A stretch of DNA of 33,058 nucleotides, taken from NCBI GenBank assembly GCA_029547225.1, contig JAKPPS010000012.1, positions 1 through 33,058 of the forward strand, given 5' to 3'. A program made the translations under genes and the position numbers. The stretch comes from a bacterium. Its GTDB lineage: Bacteria; Patescibacteriota; Dojkabacteria; SC72; WJKH01. The notes under the pieces were generated by a model, which was not told the origin of the DNA, did not search any database, and saw only the letters and a list, made by a program, of their open reading frames with translations. Below, in pieces: positions 14,984-32,460 of the stretch. Numbering within the stretch: position 1 is the stretch's first letter; each line of letters opens with the position of its first letter.

Positions 14984-15730
14984 TTATTTACTCTTACTTA
15001 CAATTACTCTTGCTGGACGAACAATAAGATCAGTACCAGACATAATGTAACCATCTTGCATTACCTGAGCAATATGTCCCTCTTTACCCTCATAAACTAC
15101 TCCCAAAGCCTCATGTCTTAATGAATCAAAAACATCTCCATCCTTACAACCCATTGCTACTACGCCTAAGGTTTCCAAAGAGCGATGTAATTTACGCATC
15201 GTTGCGATCATACCATCCAGCCAAGCAGATACTGATTGGTCGATTTGCATTTTCTCTTTTGCTTGATAAGCCAATTCTATTTCATCAATAATCCCTATTA
15301 TTTCCATCGCTGATTTAGCCTTAAGTTGTTTTATTACTATCTCATTTCTCTTATCATTATCTCTTTGCATGTTTGCATAATCAGCAAGAGCTTTCTTCAG
15401 TTGAGTAGTAATTTTTTCATTTTCAAAACGTAACTTTTGCGCTATCAAGACGACTTCATCAAGATTTTTTTGTAGTTCGTTTACATCTTTACTATTACTT
15501 GTATTACTCTGACGACTTTCCCGATTAATAGACGCATCCTTACCAGTACTTGATTTTACGCAATCCTGACACCCTTCACATTTTGATTTATCTGAGCAAT
15601 TATTATTACCACCTTGATTATCAGAGCAACAATTGCACTCCTGACATTCACATTCGTTGCATTGACAATCTTCGCTGCAATTACATTTTTCTTCTTTCTT
15701 TATATCTCTGTTATCCATATCATCCATCAA
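14984..15730 (-). CDS. grpE: GrpE nucleotide exchange factor with Cys-rich N-terminal extension
   Basis: LADYANMQRDNDKRNE... and MQDGYIMSGTDLIVRPARVIVSK are GrpE hallmarks; between hrcA and dnaK. Confidence 0.93.
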   Translation of the reverse strand: MMDDMDNRDIKKEEKCNCSEDCQCNECECQECNCCSDNQGGNNNCSDKSKCEGCQDCVKSSTGKDASINRESRQSNTSNSKDVNELQKNLDEVVLIAQKLRFENEKITTQLKKALADYANMQRDNDKRNEIVIKQLKAKSAMEIIGIIDEIELAYQAKEKMQIDQSVSAWLDGMIATMRKLHRSLETLGVVAMGCKDGDVFDSLRHEALGVVYEGKEGHIAQVMQDGYIMSGTDLIVRPARVIVSKSK

Positions 15731-16732: not shown

Positions 16733-16813
16733 GTGCTCAAGGTGCTAAATCAGAATTAGCTTGGGTAGTCATGGGATGATATTCTTGGTACGCAATTTGG
16801 TTGGTGGCATACC
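16733..16813. repeat. Imperfect 81-bp intergenic repeat, copy 1
   Basis: 69/81 ungapped matches with 18743-18823; shared block ATTTGGTTGGTGGCATACC. Confidence 0.9.
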
Positions 16814-16926
16814 ATAATAATCACCAATCACTAACATAATATTTCGATATTTTACTGTAGCGATTATCAGAAAATAGTGATATAATAAGCCTGCATTTTG
16901 AAGTAATGTTAGATTTGCGGAATCTA

Positions 16927-16955
16927 TAGACAAAATGGCTTTAAATTGATACAAT
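16927..16955 (+). promoter_or_regulatory. Promoter of rplY, placed for a leaderless transcript
   Basis: TAGACA-N17-TACAAT with the -10 ending 8 nt before ATG at 16964. Confidence 0.6.
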
Positions 16956-17617
16956 ACCGTATTATGCAAAACAAGATAAACGCTAAAAAACGAGACCTAC
17001 TCGGGAAAAAAGTAAAAAATATCAGAAAAGATGGATTTGTTCCAGCTTCAATTTATGGCTCAGATACTATCAGCCAATCAATCACTATCCCCTATGGAGA
17101 GATTGAAAAAGTCCTCAGAACTGCAACACTAACTTCTATTATCGATATGGATGTTGACGGCGCAGAAATCAAGGCATTAATTAAAGAGGTTCAGAGAGAT
17201 CTAATCACTAACGAAATCAATCATGTTTCATTCTTCAAAATCGATGAGAAAGCAGAAATGCTATTCGAGATTCCTATTTACCTTACAGGTATTGCTCCAG
17301 CAGTCAAAAACAATCTTGGTGCTCTCGTACAAACAATGAATAGTGTTGAAGTTAGATGTAAAGTCGCAGACCTCGTACCTAGCTTTACAGTTGATATTTC
17401 TAAACTTGAGGGACCTGGTCAGACAATCAAGTTAAGTGAGATTTCTATGCCAGAAGCTATTAAACTTGTTCACAAAGAAGATCTACATTCAACAATTGTA
17501 ACTATCACTGAGTTACAGAGTGAGGAAGTCACAGCAACTACTACTGAGGAGACTCCTGCAGCAACCGACGAAAAAGCAGCTGAAACTAAGGAAGAACCTA
17601 CAGAAGATAAGAAATAA
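16946..17617 (+). CDS. rplY: 50S ribosomal protein bL25 (CTC form); start more likely 16964
   Basis: NAKKRDLLGKKVKNIRKDGFVPASIYG, then CTC-type C-terminal domain and acidic tail. The -10 box falls inside the longer ORF start. Confidence 0.92.
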   Translation: MIQYRIMQNKINAKKRDLLGKKVKNIRKDGFVPASIYGSDTISQSITIPYGEIEKVLRTATLTSIIDMDVDGAEIKALIKEVQRDLITNEINHVSFFKIDEKAEMLFEIPIYLTGIAPAVKNNLGALVQTMNSVEVRCKVADLVPSFTVDISKLEGPGQTIKLSEISMPEAIKLVHKEDLHSTIVTITELQSEEVTATTTEETPAATDEKAAETKEEPTEDKK

Positions 17618-17631
17618 GAATTGTAAAACTA

Positions 17632-18540
17632 ATGATAACTGTCATTATTACCTCTTGGAAAGAGCCGAAAACTATTGGCAAAGCTATCCAATCTGTTGGA
17701 GATGTATCTTATTCAGGTATACCAGATAATTTTGAGATCATACAAGTCAGCCCTGATGATGAAACATTGCAAGCTGGCTATAAAATGTCTCAAAAGCTAA
17801 AACTTGCTGAGAAATTTATTCAGATAAGAGATCCTCAAAAAGGTAAGCCATACGCATATAAAATGGCAATTGATATTGCAAAAGGTGATATTATCATAAC
17901 TACTGACGGAGATGTATATTTCGGCGAAAAAGCCATCGAACACATAGTAAAGGCTTTTGAAGATAAAAGAATAGGTGGTGTTTCTGGCCGCCCTATTTCT
18001 GCGCAAAGCAAGGATACTTTTTGGTCATATATCGGCAACTTACTCGCTGATTCAGCACATCACAAAAGGACTTCTACAGCGAATAAAAACGAATTCTTCC
18101 CGATGAGTGGATACATTATGGCATTTCGAAAGATTAAACTCGCAATACCTCAAGATGTACTTTCCGATGATGCATATATCTCTTATATCATAGCTAAAAG
18201 TGGCAAATTGATCGGATACGCACCACAGGCATTAGCATATATCAAATATCCTGACAATTACAAGGATTACATGAAACAGAAAGTCCGTTCTCACGGCGGT
18301 TATCAGCAATTAAAAAAATATCCTGAAATACAAGGTATGAAGACTACACGAACATTTCTCGATGAACTAAGGTATTTTTGGTTCCCAATCGCATATGCAA
18401 AAAACATAAGGGAATTTTTTTGGTCATTATTACTCTACCCTCTAAGGATTATTCAATGGATAAGAATTTTCTATGAAAGAGTCATCCTCAAAAAAGGCAT
18501 GAGTGCAACAGGTTGGGATAGAATCGAAAGTACTAAATAG
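17632..18540 (+). CDS. Family 2 glycosyltransferase
   Basis: TVIITSWKEPKTIGKAIQSV, GDIIITTDGDVYF, GGVSGRP, C-terminal hydrophobic segment. Confidence 0.88.
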   Translation: MITVIITSWKEPKTIGKAIQSVGDVSYSGIPDNFEIIQVSPDDETLQAGYKMSQKLKLAEKFIQIRDPQKGKPYAYKMAIDIAKGDIIITTDGDVYFGEKAIEHIVKAFEDKRIGGVSGRPISAQSKDTFWSYIGNLLADSAHHKRTSTANKNEFFPMSGYIMAFRKIKLAIPQDVLSDDAYISYIIAKSGKLIGYAPQALAYIKYPDNYKDYMKQKVRSHGGYQQLKKYPEIQGMKTTRTFLDELRYFWFPIAYAKNIREFFWSLLLYPLRIIQWIRIFYERVILKKGMSATGWDRIESTK

Positions 18541-18742
18541 CTTTTATTTTACGCAATTTTCCAAGTCTTCTCGGAATACTGTATTAGTCACACTAAGCTA
18601 CCTTTTTAAATTCCGCTCTTTATTGTGAAATCAAGTAGTATTTTATAACCATGCGCTGATTTTCAAAATTATCCGTCACCATTACAATCCAAGCGTTGTA
18701 CATTAATATCACCCGATTCACATGCTGTGTATTATTACAGTC

Positions 18743-18823
18743 GTGCTAAAGGTTATAGATCAGCCTGAGCATGGGTAGTCATGGAATGATATTATTGGGA
18801 CGCTATTTGGTTGGTGGCATACC
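18743..18823. repeat. Imperfect 81-bp intergenic repeat, copy 2
   Basis: Same orientation as copy 1, 69/81 matches. Confidence 0.9.
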
Positions 18824-18904
18824 TAAAACCAACTTCTACGAAAAATATTAAAATAGCTTGAAAAAGCGTAGACTACTAAGCCTGGAAATACAAATGAAAA
18901 TCTC

Positions 18905-27932: not shown

Positions 27933-29519
27933 CTACTTACGCAGAATTAGTGATGTACCTGTCATTACAAATGGTTTCTCAATTCCCATCAAGTCCAAAA
28001 TCGTTGGGGCTACGTCTTCCAAAGACTCTCTTCTATCGAGTGTACAATCTAAATCACTTACCACAATAAATGGGACAGGGTTTAAAGTATGTTGAGTATG
28101 AGGTTGGTTATTCTTGTAGTCCCACATAATATCAGCATTTCCATGATCGGCAGTAATAATAAGTGCATATTTATCTAATTTACTCTCTATCGTTTCAAAT
28201 ATTTTCCCAAGGCAGTAATCTACGGATTCTGTTGCAATGACAGCAGCAGGATAATTACCTGTATGACCGACCATATCGGTACTGCTAAAATTAACGGCAA
28301 TAAAATCATATTCTTCATCGTCAATTGCTTTGATCACTCGTTTAGTAAGATCAAAATTACGCATACTTGGTTCATAATTATATTGTGGTTTTACAAATCT
28401 GTTTGAATCACACATCTCCCAAGTTTCTCCTTCGAACTCCTGCTCTCTTTCACCGTTTAGAAAAAAAGTTAAGTGCTGATATTTTTCAGTTTCAGCAATA
28501 TGAATCTGTTTCTTTCCTGCCTTTGATATCGCTTCAGACATAGTATCGGTAACCTTAAGTCTCGGGAACGCAACAAGTAATCGAGTAAACTCCTCACCTG
28601 GTGAAACAAATGAGCCAATAATAGATTTTTTGCTAGTGTTATCAAAAATAGCTTTTAAAAACTGATGCATCCGGTCGGTACGATAATGAAACATAAAAAG
28701 GCCGTCTCCATCTGTAAATCCAAAATAGTCTCCAATGGCATACTGTTCGAAAAATTCATCTTTATTGTTCTGATTATATTCATAATTTAATACAGCTTGC
28801 CAATCGTTAAATCTTCTCCCGACAGCTTTTGTCACAAGCTCTACAGCAAATTTCGTCTTATCCCAATCCTTATCTCTGTCAAGATAAAGTCTTCCCTGTA
28901 CCGTAGCCAGACTTATATTTATATTACTGTATTTCTTTATTTGACCATCTAGCCATTTAAAATAGTTTTCAGCACTAATCGGGGGTACGTCTCTCCCATC
29001 AGTGAAAGAATGAACAAATATCTTATTCTCAAACTGATGCCTTGATAAAAATTCAAAGATCGCACTAAGATGATTTGTATGAGAATGTAGGCCGCCATCA
29101 CTCAAAATACCTGCAAGATGAATATTTGATCCATATTTTTTGCAGTTTTCCATCAAACTAACCAAAGCTTCATTATTGTAAAACTCGCCTGTCTCAATAG
29201 AATTATTAATACGAGGTAGATCTTGCAAAATCACTCTACCCGCACCAATTGTCAGATGATTCACTTCAGAGGTACCCATTTGTCCCTCTGGTAGACCTAC
29301 ACTTAATCCATCAGACTTCAGGGAAGTGTTTGGATAATTACGCGCGAGCTTGTCATAAATAGGTTTTTGAGCATTATCGATAGCATTGTACTTATCAGGT
29401 TTACCTACTCCCCATCCATCCATGATCACTAAAATAACTTTTTTTGATAAATTATTTTTCCGTACTTTTGGTTTTTGTGAGACAGGTGCAATTCCCTTTT
29501 TATTTACCATTTCAATCAT
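27933..29519 (-). CDS. gpmI: 2,3-bisphosphoglycerate-independent phosphoglycerate mutase
   Basis: VILVIMDGWGVG, LPEGQMGTSEVNHLTIGAGRV, HSFTDGRDVPP, ITADHGNADIM. Confidence 0.97.
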   Translation of the reverse strand: MIEMVNKKGIAPVSQKPKVRKNNLSKKVILVIMDGWGVGKPDKYNAIDNAQKPIYDKLARNYPNTSLKSDGLSVGLPEGQMGTSEVNHLTIGAGRVILQDLPRINNSIETGEFYNNEALVSLMENCKKYGSNIHLAGILSDGGLHSHTNHLSAIFEFLSRHQFENKIFVHSFTDGRDVPPISAENYFKWLDGQIKKYSNINISLATVQGRLYLDRDKDWDKTKFAVELVTKAVGRRFNDWQAVLNYEYNQNNKDEFFEQYAIGDYFGFTDGDGLFMFHYRTDRMHQFLKAIFDNTSKKSIIGSFVSPGEEFTRLLVAFPRLKVTDTMSEAISKAGKKQIHIAETEKYQHLTFFLNGEREQEFEGETWEMCDSNRFVKPQYNYEPSMRNFDLTKRVIKAIDDEEYDFIAVNFSSTDMVGHTGNYPAAVIATESVDYCLGKIFETIESKLDKYALIITADHGNADIMWDYKNNQPHTQHTLNPVPFIVVSDLDCTLDRRESLEDVAPTILDLMGIEKPFVMTGTSLILRK

Positions 29520-29736
29520 TAATGATAATTAATATATCCGATTGCTAAAGAATAATTACTCTCTCGGACACAATTGATCCCCAAGCAATTTCTATTCTAT
29601 ACAAAAATATTTTATTCACATTGTTTAGATATGTCAAAGTGAGTTTGCGGAGACGATACTTATAGTGATGGTAAAGCGATCGCCTCCTGCAAAGAGATCG
29701 GATACATAAAAAATCTACTATCAAAGTAAATAGTAT

Positions 29737-32460
29737 TTATTTTTCTAACTTCTCTCGTATTACTGCTTGAGCTGCAGCCAATCTTGCCACTGGAACACGA
29801 TATGGTGAACAGCTTACATAGTTAAGTCCAATTTTATGGCAAAACTCAACGGATTTTGGCTCACCACCATGCTCTCCACAAATTCCAATTTCCATTTCTG
29901 GATTAACTTCACGACCTTTTTTTACTGCCATCTCCATCAATACTCCGATACCCTCCTGATCAATTACCTGGAATGGATCATCCATATAAACACCCAATTC
30001 GATATATTTACCAATGAACTTTCCAGCATCATCTCTCGAATATCCATAAGTTGTTTGTGTAAGGTCATTTGTACCGAACGAGAAGAACTGTGAATATTGA
30101 GCAAATTTATCGGCAGTAACACAAGCCCTTGGTAACTCTATCATTGTACCGATTGTATATTCGAGCAGTTTAAGCTCTTTTGTAGCATTTATGTCAACTT
30201 TTGCTTGCTGTAATACTGGATCAGCAATATCTTTAATTACTTGGTTTAACACTTCCAACTCTCTATAGTTTGAAGTAACAGGGATTTCTATCTCTGGCTT
30301 GACCAAAATACCTTCTTTCGCAACCACAATAGCAGCATTGATAATAGCTCGGGTTTGCATCTCAGTTATTTCTGGATAAACCATGCCCAATCGACAACCT
30401 CTAAAACCAAGCATAGGATTAAACTCAGCCAAAGATTCTTTTCGTTCTTTCAAAACTTCGAAATCAACCTCCATAGCTTTTGCTAAATCTTGCATCTCCT
30501 CATCTGTGTGAGGTAGAAATTCGTGCAATGGTGGATCAAGAAGTCTTACAGTAACTGGTAAATCGTGCATTTGACGAAATATGTTTTCAAAATCTGATTG
30601 CTGCATTTTTTCGATCTTCTTGAGAGCTTTAACTCTCTCTTCTTTCGTATCAGATAAAATCATTTCTCTGACAGCAAAAATCCTATCCTCCTGAAAAAAC
30701 ATGTGCTCTGTACGACAAAGACCGATACCTTCTGCACCGAATTTTCTGGCAACTGTAGCATCTTTTGGCGTATCTGCATTGGTTCTAACCTTTAATTTTC
30801 GAACATCATCAGCCCACTGCATCAAAATACCAAACTCGCCTTCTAGAGTCGGCTCAACTGTATCTATTTTTCCTCGATAAACCTCACCATTTGAACCGTC
30901 AAGAGTAATCCAATCTCCCTCCACCAGATCAATACTTTTACCCACGTGTAGGCTTTTTTTCTCTTCATTTACAGCAATATCTGAACAGCCAGAAACACAA
31001 CATTTTCCCATACCTCTAGCTACAACTGCCGCATGACTTGTCATACCACCTCTTGCAGTTAAAATGCCTTGAGCAACATTCATGCCTTCGATATCTTCTG
31101 GCGAAGTTTCCATACGCACGAGGATCACTTTCTTTCCTTGGTTTGCCCAGATAACAGCATCCTCTGCAGTAAAGACTATTTGACCGGTAGATGCACCAGG
31201 TGAAGCTGGAAGTCCCTTAGCAATAAGTTCTTTTTGAGCCTTAGGATCAATAGCTGGATGTAACAACTGATTGAGAGCATTTGGATCAACTCGCATAATA
31301 GCAGTGTCCTTATCGATTAATTTCTCATTAAACATATCTACAGCGATTTTTACTGCAGCTTTACCTGTACGCTTACCAACTCTCGATTGCAACATATACA
31401 AAATACCCTCCTCGATAGTGAATTCGAGATCAACCATATCTTTATAATGCATCTCGAGTTTTGCGAAAATCTCTTTAACTTGTTCATAGATTTCGGGCAT
31501 CTCTTTTGCCATATCATCAAGATGTTTAGGAGTACGGATACCTGCGACGACATCTTCACCCTGTGCATTGACGAGATATTCACCATAATATTCTTTGGCA
31601 CCAGTAGACGGATTTCGAGTAAAAGCTACTCCAGTAGCAGAATTCTCTCCCATATTTCCGAAAACCATAGCTTGTACTGTAACAGCTGTACCAGAAATCT
31701 TTGCAGGAACTTTGTTTATACGACGATACGAAATGGCTCGAGGATTATTCCACGATTTGAAGACTGCCTCGATACTCAACATTAACTGTTCAAATGGATC
31801 ATGAGGAAATTCTTTACCCGTATCTGTCTTGTAAAGATCAAGGTATCTATCGACAATGATTTTAATATTATCTGCAGTGAGATCAACATCTAACGATACT
31901 CCGAATTCTTCCTTAGCACTATCCAAAATACCCATAAACTTAGCGTGTTCAACACCCATCACTACATCCCCAAACATCTGTATAAATCTACGATAATTAT
32001 CCCATGCAAAACGATCATTTCCAGATTTAGCAATCAAGCCCTGCAATGTTTCCTTATTAAGACCAAGATTCAATATCGTATCCATCATTCCTGGCATTGA
32101 TACGGCAGAACCGGATCTTACTGAAAGCAATAATGGATTCTGAGGATCACCAAATTTCTTTCCAGTACTCTCTTCTATTTTTTGAAGATATTGTTTTACT
32201 TGCTCAGTAAAATCGGCTGGAAATTGTCTATCATTTTTATAATAATATTCACAAGTTTGTATTGATATGACAAAACCTTGTGGTACCGGTAACCCCATTT
32301 CCGTCATCTGTACTAATGAGTAGCCTTTTCCTCCTAATATATATTTTGGTTCATTTGTATTTGGTGACTCTGTTTTTTCTTTTGAGAAAAAATAAAAGTC
32401 TTTGTTAGTTAAAGTCTCCCTAGCTGATTGGTTTTTTGAATTATTTATTTTTGTTGCCAT
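29737..32460 (-). CDS. ppdK: Pyruvate, phosphate dikinase
   Basis: GGKGYSLVQMTEMGLPVPQGFVIS, GGMTSHAAVVARGMGKCCVSGC (catalytic His), GICGEHGGEPKSVEFCHKIGLNYVSCSPYRVPVARLAAAQA. Confidence 0.98.
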   Translation of the reverse strand: MATKINNSKNQSARETLTNKDFYFFSKEKTESPNTNEPKYILGGKGYSLVQMTEMGLPVPQGFVISIQTCEYYYKNDRQFPADFTEQVKQYLQKIEESTGKKFGDPQNPLLLSVRSGSAVSMPGMMDTILNLGLNKETLQGLIAKSGNDRFAWDNYRRFIQMFGDVVMGVEHAKFMGILDSAKEEFGVSLDVDLTADNIKIIVDRYLDLYKTDTGKEFPHDPFEQLMLSIEAVFKSWNNPRAISYRRINKVPAKISGTAVTVQAMVFGNMGENSATGVAFTRNPSTGAKEYYGEYLVNAQGEDVVAGIRTPKHLDDMAKEMPEIYEQVKEIFAKLEMHYKDMVDLEFTIEEGILYMLQSRVGKRTGKAAVKIAVDMFNEKLIDKDTAIMRVDPNALNQLLHPAIDPKAQKELIAKGLPASPGASTGQIVFTAEDAVIWANQGKKVILVRMETSPEDIEGMNVAQGILTARGGMTSHAAVVARGMGKCCVSGCSDIAVNEEKKSLHVGKSIDLVEGDWITLDGSNGEVYRGKIDTVEPTLEGEFGILMQWADDVRKLKVRTNADTPKDATVARKFGAEGIGLCRTEHMFFQEDRIFAVREMILSDTKEERVKALKKIEKMQQSDFENIFRQMHDLPVTVRLLDPPLHEFLPHTDEEMQDLAKAMEVDFEVLKERKESLAEFNPMLGFRGCRLGMVYPEITEMQTRAIINAAIVVAKEGILVKPEIEIPVTSNYRELEVLNQVIKDIADPVLQQAKVDINATKELKLLEYTIGTMIELPRACVTADKFAQYSQFFSFGTNDLTQTTYGYSRDDAGKFIGKYIELGVYMDDPFQVIDQEGIGVLMEMAVKKGREVNPEMEIGICGEHGGEPKSVEFCHKIGLNYVSCSPYRVPVARLAAAQAVIREKLEK

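Follow-up and report, generated by a model that had tools for sequence, protein, structure and literature searches.

The described systems that come closest to the repeats reported here include two groups. REP, BIME and REPIN sequences are short extragenic units that form inverted doublets with variable spacers, fall into several sequence groups per genome and spread extragenically; in the REPIN study, singlets were decayed remnants, more diverged than the doublets (PMC3116915). Bacterial MITEs and other small mobile repeats (ERIC/RU, Correia, RUP and BOX) are non-coding intergenic elements of 100-300 bp with inverted ends that appear as extra DNA relative to related genomes (PMC10969869, PMC2229807). 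The family described below shares the general features listed for each group, the decay of singlets excepted and inverted arms being seen at its doublets only, and it differs from each in ways to which we return at the end. In the open-licence literature that we searched we found no description of a MITE-like or REP-like family of such a kind in candidate-phyla bacteria. Genomes in the order and class of the source organism measure 0.5-1.6 Mb, and genomes so small and streamlined would not be expected to harbour a non-coding repeat in dozens of copies.

The window, by which we mean the whole 33,058-nt stretch of DNA analysed, is contig C59 of the draft genome G000 (1.01 Mb in 59 contigs, 84% complete). 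Its top direct-repeat family consists of positions 16733-16813 and 18743-18823, which align without gaps at 69/81 identity (85%) on the same strand. The repeat search confirmed what had been noted from the letters alone, namely two similar 81-bp copies in the same orientation, each sitting in an intergenic gap. The 18-mer TTTGGTTGGTGGCATACC occurs twice in the window against an expectation of 0.03, and the combined pattern of core, spacer and outer box occurs twice against an expectation of 0.00. Each copy is one module of roughly 65-85 nt belonging to a larger family, and we refer to such a module as an arm. The arms recognized in the window are the following.

16733..16813, plus strand: RE-type arm (copy 1), solo, between hrcA (minus strand) and rplY (plus strand); GTG inner box at 16733, core GGGTAGTCATGG at 16763-16774, spacer, outer box GGTTGGTGGCATACC at 16799-16813
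18639..18730, minus strand: LE-type arm, left half of the copy 2 doublet, missed by the original prediction; core GGATTGTAATGG at 18679-18690 (minus strand), outer box GCATGGTTATA towards 18641
18743..18823, plus strand: RE-type arm (copy 2), right half of a head-to-head doublet; core at 18773-18784, outer box at 18809-18823
29650..29712, plus strand: LEc-type arm; core TATAGTGATGG at 29661-29671, outer box CGGATACATAAAA

The LEc arm is flanked by the iPGM gene (27933-29519, minus strand) and a PPDK-like gene (29737-32460, minus strand) and lies in the gap that separates them; it scored weakly by the first model (19.9 bits) and reached E=9.8e-6 with a profile iterated on all non-RE arms. As a separate observation on the window, the gene at 14984-15730 (minus strand) encodes a GrpE whose N-terminal tail is unusually rich in cysteine, with many CxC/CxxC motifs, and is possibly metal-binding.

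A blastn search of the genome with copy 1 returned 28 matches on many contigs and both strands, nearly all of them true copies, and put the number of copies of this subfamily (RE) at about 27. Using the longer copy 2 region as query revealed a second module type upstream of copy 2, found elsewhere also alone, and this type, when reverse-complemented, aligns with the first. A covariance model search of the genome recovered 62 arms, and iterative profiles recovered at least 71 arms at 53 loci, on both strands, in the 899 kb read; further copies, for which the original prediction had proposed a search, are plentiful in this genome. By the covariance model, the small contigs of the draft (about 244 kb) hold a single arm (C22:3855) as against about 61 in roughly 770 kb of large contigs, and some of these small contigs may stem from another organism or a mobile element. 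The arms fall into at least four subfamilies, and since all members come from one genome the copy numbers given here are counts of sequences and not of independent events.

RE: core GGGTAGTCATGG, outer box GGTTGGTGGCATACC, 27 copies
LE: core GGATTGTAATGG, outer box GCATGGTTAYA, 26 copies in the seed set and 3 more
LEb: core GGATAGTGATGG, outer box GCTCGGATACAT, 7 copies
LEc: core TTATAGYRATGG or TTATTGCAATGG, outer box CGGATACA, about 8 copies

The layout of the arms is GTG-N~30-core-N~28-outer box, and across arms the distance from core to outer box takes values of 35-38 nt only. In the 27 RE arms, a set first gathered by exact core match, the core is 100% identical, the outer box 94% and the spacer 55%; RE arms with a damaged core did not appear even in a permissive model search of the genome (E up to 10). 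An invariant core, a conserved outer box and a freely varying spacer together indicate constraint on the two boxes and on their spacing. One close pair aside, the genome holds no near-identical, young copies.

Where two arms lie within 450 nt of each other they are head-to-head in 18 cases out of 18, never in tandem and never tail-to-tail. These doublets, about 170-340 bp long, join inverted homologous arms of different subfamilies; none of the 18 is an RE-RE doublet, which chance could explain. The arm stands alone at 35 of the 53 loci, and such solo arms match their profiles as well as paired arms do (leave-one-out scores of 60.8 paired and 59.5 solo for RE arms, p=0.94; 40.5 paired and 41.9 solo for non-RE arms, p=0.54). 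The partners of three arms emerged only with a more sensitive search. The undecayed solo arms either move by themselves, or have partners in unrecognized subfamilies, or serve the host.

Gene context was taken from a simple ORF model, by which a single arm overlaps an ORF of 100 aa or more, an ORF that itself arises from the repeat. Arms are found in co-directional, convergent and divergent gaps; convergent gaps hold more of them than expected and divergent gaps fewer (p about 0.04 for each, without correction), and the arms show no clear preference of orientation relative to the neighbouring genes. We compared these gaps with those of G012, a single-contig genome of the same order and another family, pairing orthologues by reciprocal best hits. 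The 17 conserved gene pairs that carry arms have a median gap of 310 nt here and 59 nt in G012, whereas the corresponding values for 174 gene pairs without arms are 37.5 nt and 17 nt (arm versus no arm, p=1.5e-8); one of the 17 arm-carrying pairs differs in the opposite direction. The smallest gap excess, 108 nt at a solo arm, amounts to about one arm length, and at most loci there is extra DNA beyond the arm. In G013, which like G012 belongs to another family than the source genome, the GT2 and rpsG ORFs abut with 0 bases between them; the window has 364 nt there, with an LE-RE doublet. Since these relatives are distant, the extra DNA is lineage-specific at a resolution coarser than that of single insertion events. 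Two other large gaps in G000, C29:66145-66701 (555 nt) and C29:60708-61023 (314 nt), correspond to 2 and 6 nt in G012 and contain no recognized arm; subfamilies that escaped detection, or repeats of another sort, may lie there.

Beyond this genome the arms have not turned up. The covariance model detected none in 41 other genomes of the order, a model search none in 85 other genomes of the class and blastn none in 58 relatives, and searches of phages and plasmids gave none either; copies in relatives, which the original prediction had also proposed to look for, did not materialize. The exact core-to-outer pattern, allowing the gap lengths seen in the arms, has 0 matches in viral contigs; an LE pattern of 18 bases that leaves out the outer box has 11 viral matches, and a stricter pattern has 0. 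A 223-kb sample of G001, the only genome of the same family, likewise has none of these arms. That sample (L207-L225) carries dispersed repeats of its own that are unrelated to the arms (for example L210:5138-5360 and L218:13586-13675), one a near-perfect palindrome of about 90 bp (ACGAAATTCAAAA...TTTTGAATTTCG) and another an element of about 215 bp (GAAAAGGCGACTAGGACT...). Their presence raises the thought that the lineage may be unusually open to such repeats. G012 has almost no dispersed repeats.

We found no gene for an enzyme that moves the arms. The 84%-complete genome contains no Y1_Tnp domain (PF01797, RAYT), in a search for which control genomes were positive and which leaves room for a gene in the missing part, and no DDE_Tnp_1 domain. 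Its only DDE integrase domain with a match to rve (PF00665) is a fragment at a contig edge (G000:C50:6-305, L226), and that contig carries no arm. The genome encodes three tyrosine recombinases, none of them tied to the arms. A tyrosine recombinase with an RE arm just upstream of its gene (G000:C29:77361-79139; L229, L230) is 592 aa long, against 476 aa in G012, and a long low-complexity insertion interrupts its catalytic domain. Among the genes tested between nearby arms, Pfam identified no transposase. We considered LE...RE intervals of 2-4 kb as autonomous copies and rejected them, since on visual inspection their content is ordinary genes, dnaX and a UmuC-like polymerase among them. No target-site duplication was apparent, the longest shared flank being 5.67 nt as against 5.64 nt with swapped flanks in a test limited by the imprecise ends of the element.

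Taken together, these data lead us to favour, at a probability of about 0.6, a lineage-specific and non-autonomous family of REPIN-like or MITE-like mobile DNA. A MITE-like repeat was among the options of the original prediction and is the one that gained from the many dispersed intergenic copies, the head-to-head doublets and the greater length of the gaps compared with their orthologues. The unit would be the arm, with its invariant core box, a spacer of about 28 nt nearly fixed in length and an outer end box, and two head-to-head arms would make up a miniature element-like doublet with two outward-facing ends. Boxes at fixed spacing, two outward ends and diverged end types suggest ends recognized by a recombinase in trans. 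Such a recombinase or transposase might read the boxes either as half-sites in double-stranded DNA or in the form of a small hairpin made by a single strand, and copies would have spread into gaps of this lineage after its split from the sequenced relatives. Several observations speak against mobility: dead remnants of an element with two ends would hardly be expected to look like the undecayed solo arms, near-identical young copies are missing apart from one close pair, and the genome has yielded no mover enzyme, target-site duplication or autonomous copy.

As a rival explanation, each arm may be a multi-box binding site kept by the host for a protein of the nucleoid, segregation, replication or transcription-boundary type, perhaps spread by mobility and then domesticated. 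The core identical in 27/27 RE arms beside spacers at 55%, with no damaged-core RE arm, the fixed core-to-outer distance and the solo arms as intact as paired ones are what such a site would predict. On the other hand, the arms are absent from every relative including the one of the same family, which argues against an essential, ancient system; they are intergenic only, without preferred orientation to neighbouring genes, and at most loci the added DNA exceeds the arm itself. On balance we regard a host-kept site as an unlikely though serious alternative to the mobile family. A related proposal, which we advance only tentatively and consider no more probable, is that selection acts on the single arm and not on the doublet: the roughly 70 arms would then be two-box DNA sites with invariant boxes and drifting spacers, taken up in one lineage, where either the host or an undescribed form of single-arm mobility makes use of them.

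A structured RNA formed by pairing of the core with the outer box, whether a small RNA or a cis-acting element, seems to us improbable despite some suggestive pairing. The GTNA of the core is complementary to the outer box and the central pair is C-G, A-U or G-U according to subfamily, with 59/59 arms paired, above all 500 shuffles; over 70 arms the pairing amounts to 92% on the forward strand and 73% on the reverse. This lends the structured RNA of the original prediction weak support at best, in that core and outer box shift in step between subfamilies. Yet the pair changes represent only two or three subfamily events, the neighbouring pairs break in LEb and LEc, and folding is unremarkable (the mean z is -1.0 in RE arms and lies between about -0.6 and 0.1 in the other types). 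Rfam 15 gave no match at the arms (the window at gathering score, 10 loci at E up to 5), and there is no orientation bias towards genes, the two arms of a doublet diverging on opposite strands. Nor does the 3' hairpin ascribed to each window copy help: it can be drawn in both, but the longest stem that the GGTTGGTGG block can form with the 30 nt after it has a mean of 6.27 in 26 copies. With swapped flanks the mean is 6.22 (sd 0.16), and 221 of 500 swaps reach the observed value, so that we attribute the hairpin to chance. Given the excess of forward over reverse pairing, the arms may form a small single-stranded hairpin; inverted double-stranded half-sites fit the pairing data about as well. 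Relic coding, suggested by one frame that reads similarly in both window copies, we reject as having almost no chance of being right, because the frames are closed in most copies: for the forward frames of the 81-bp unit the numbers of open copies are 0, 3 and 9 out of 27, and for those of the core-to-outer stretch 0, 12 and 14 out of 26. Conservation lies in two blocks and covers every codon position, the core being invariant at third positions too, and no full-length gene with the motif was seen.

With boxes that are fixed and spacers that are free, with arms paired strictly head-to-head and solo arms that have not decayed, this family offers a clean test of selfish repeats against repeats used by the cell. 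Compared with REP, BIME and REPIN sequences, the core and outer boxes of an arm lie about 37 nt apart and do not form a compact palindrome, and a GTAG-like tetranucleotide is not common to all subfamilies. The doublets (n=18) fold with a mean z of -1.5 and -1.1 on the two strands and a range of +1.0 to -3.8. The solo arms are no more decayed than the doublets, the opposite of the REPIN finding, and no RAYT was found; on these two grounds we do not claim membership among REPINs. The family departs from MITEs in that about two thirds of its loci are one-ended, its ends are of several diverged types instead of near-identical inverted repeats, and it comes with neither a target-site duplication nor a parent IS.

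In Tn7-like and Mu-like transposons each end carries several related boxes, whose spacing is fixed while the spacers are free to vary, and the two ends differ from each other. No TnsB-like or MuA-like gene is tied to the arms, and it is in layout only that the arms resemble ends of this kind.
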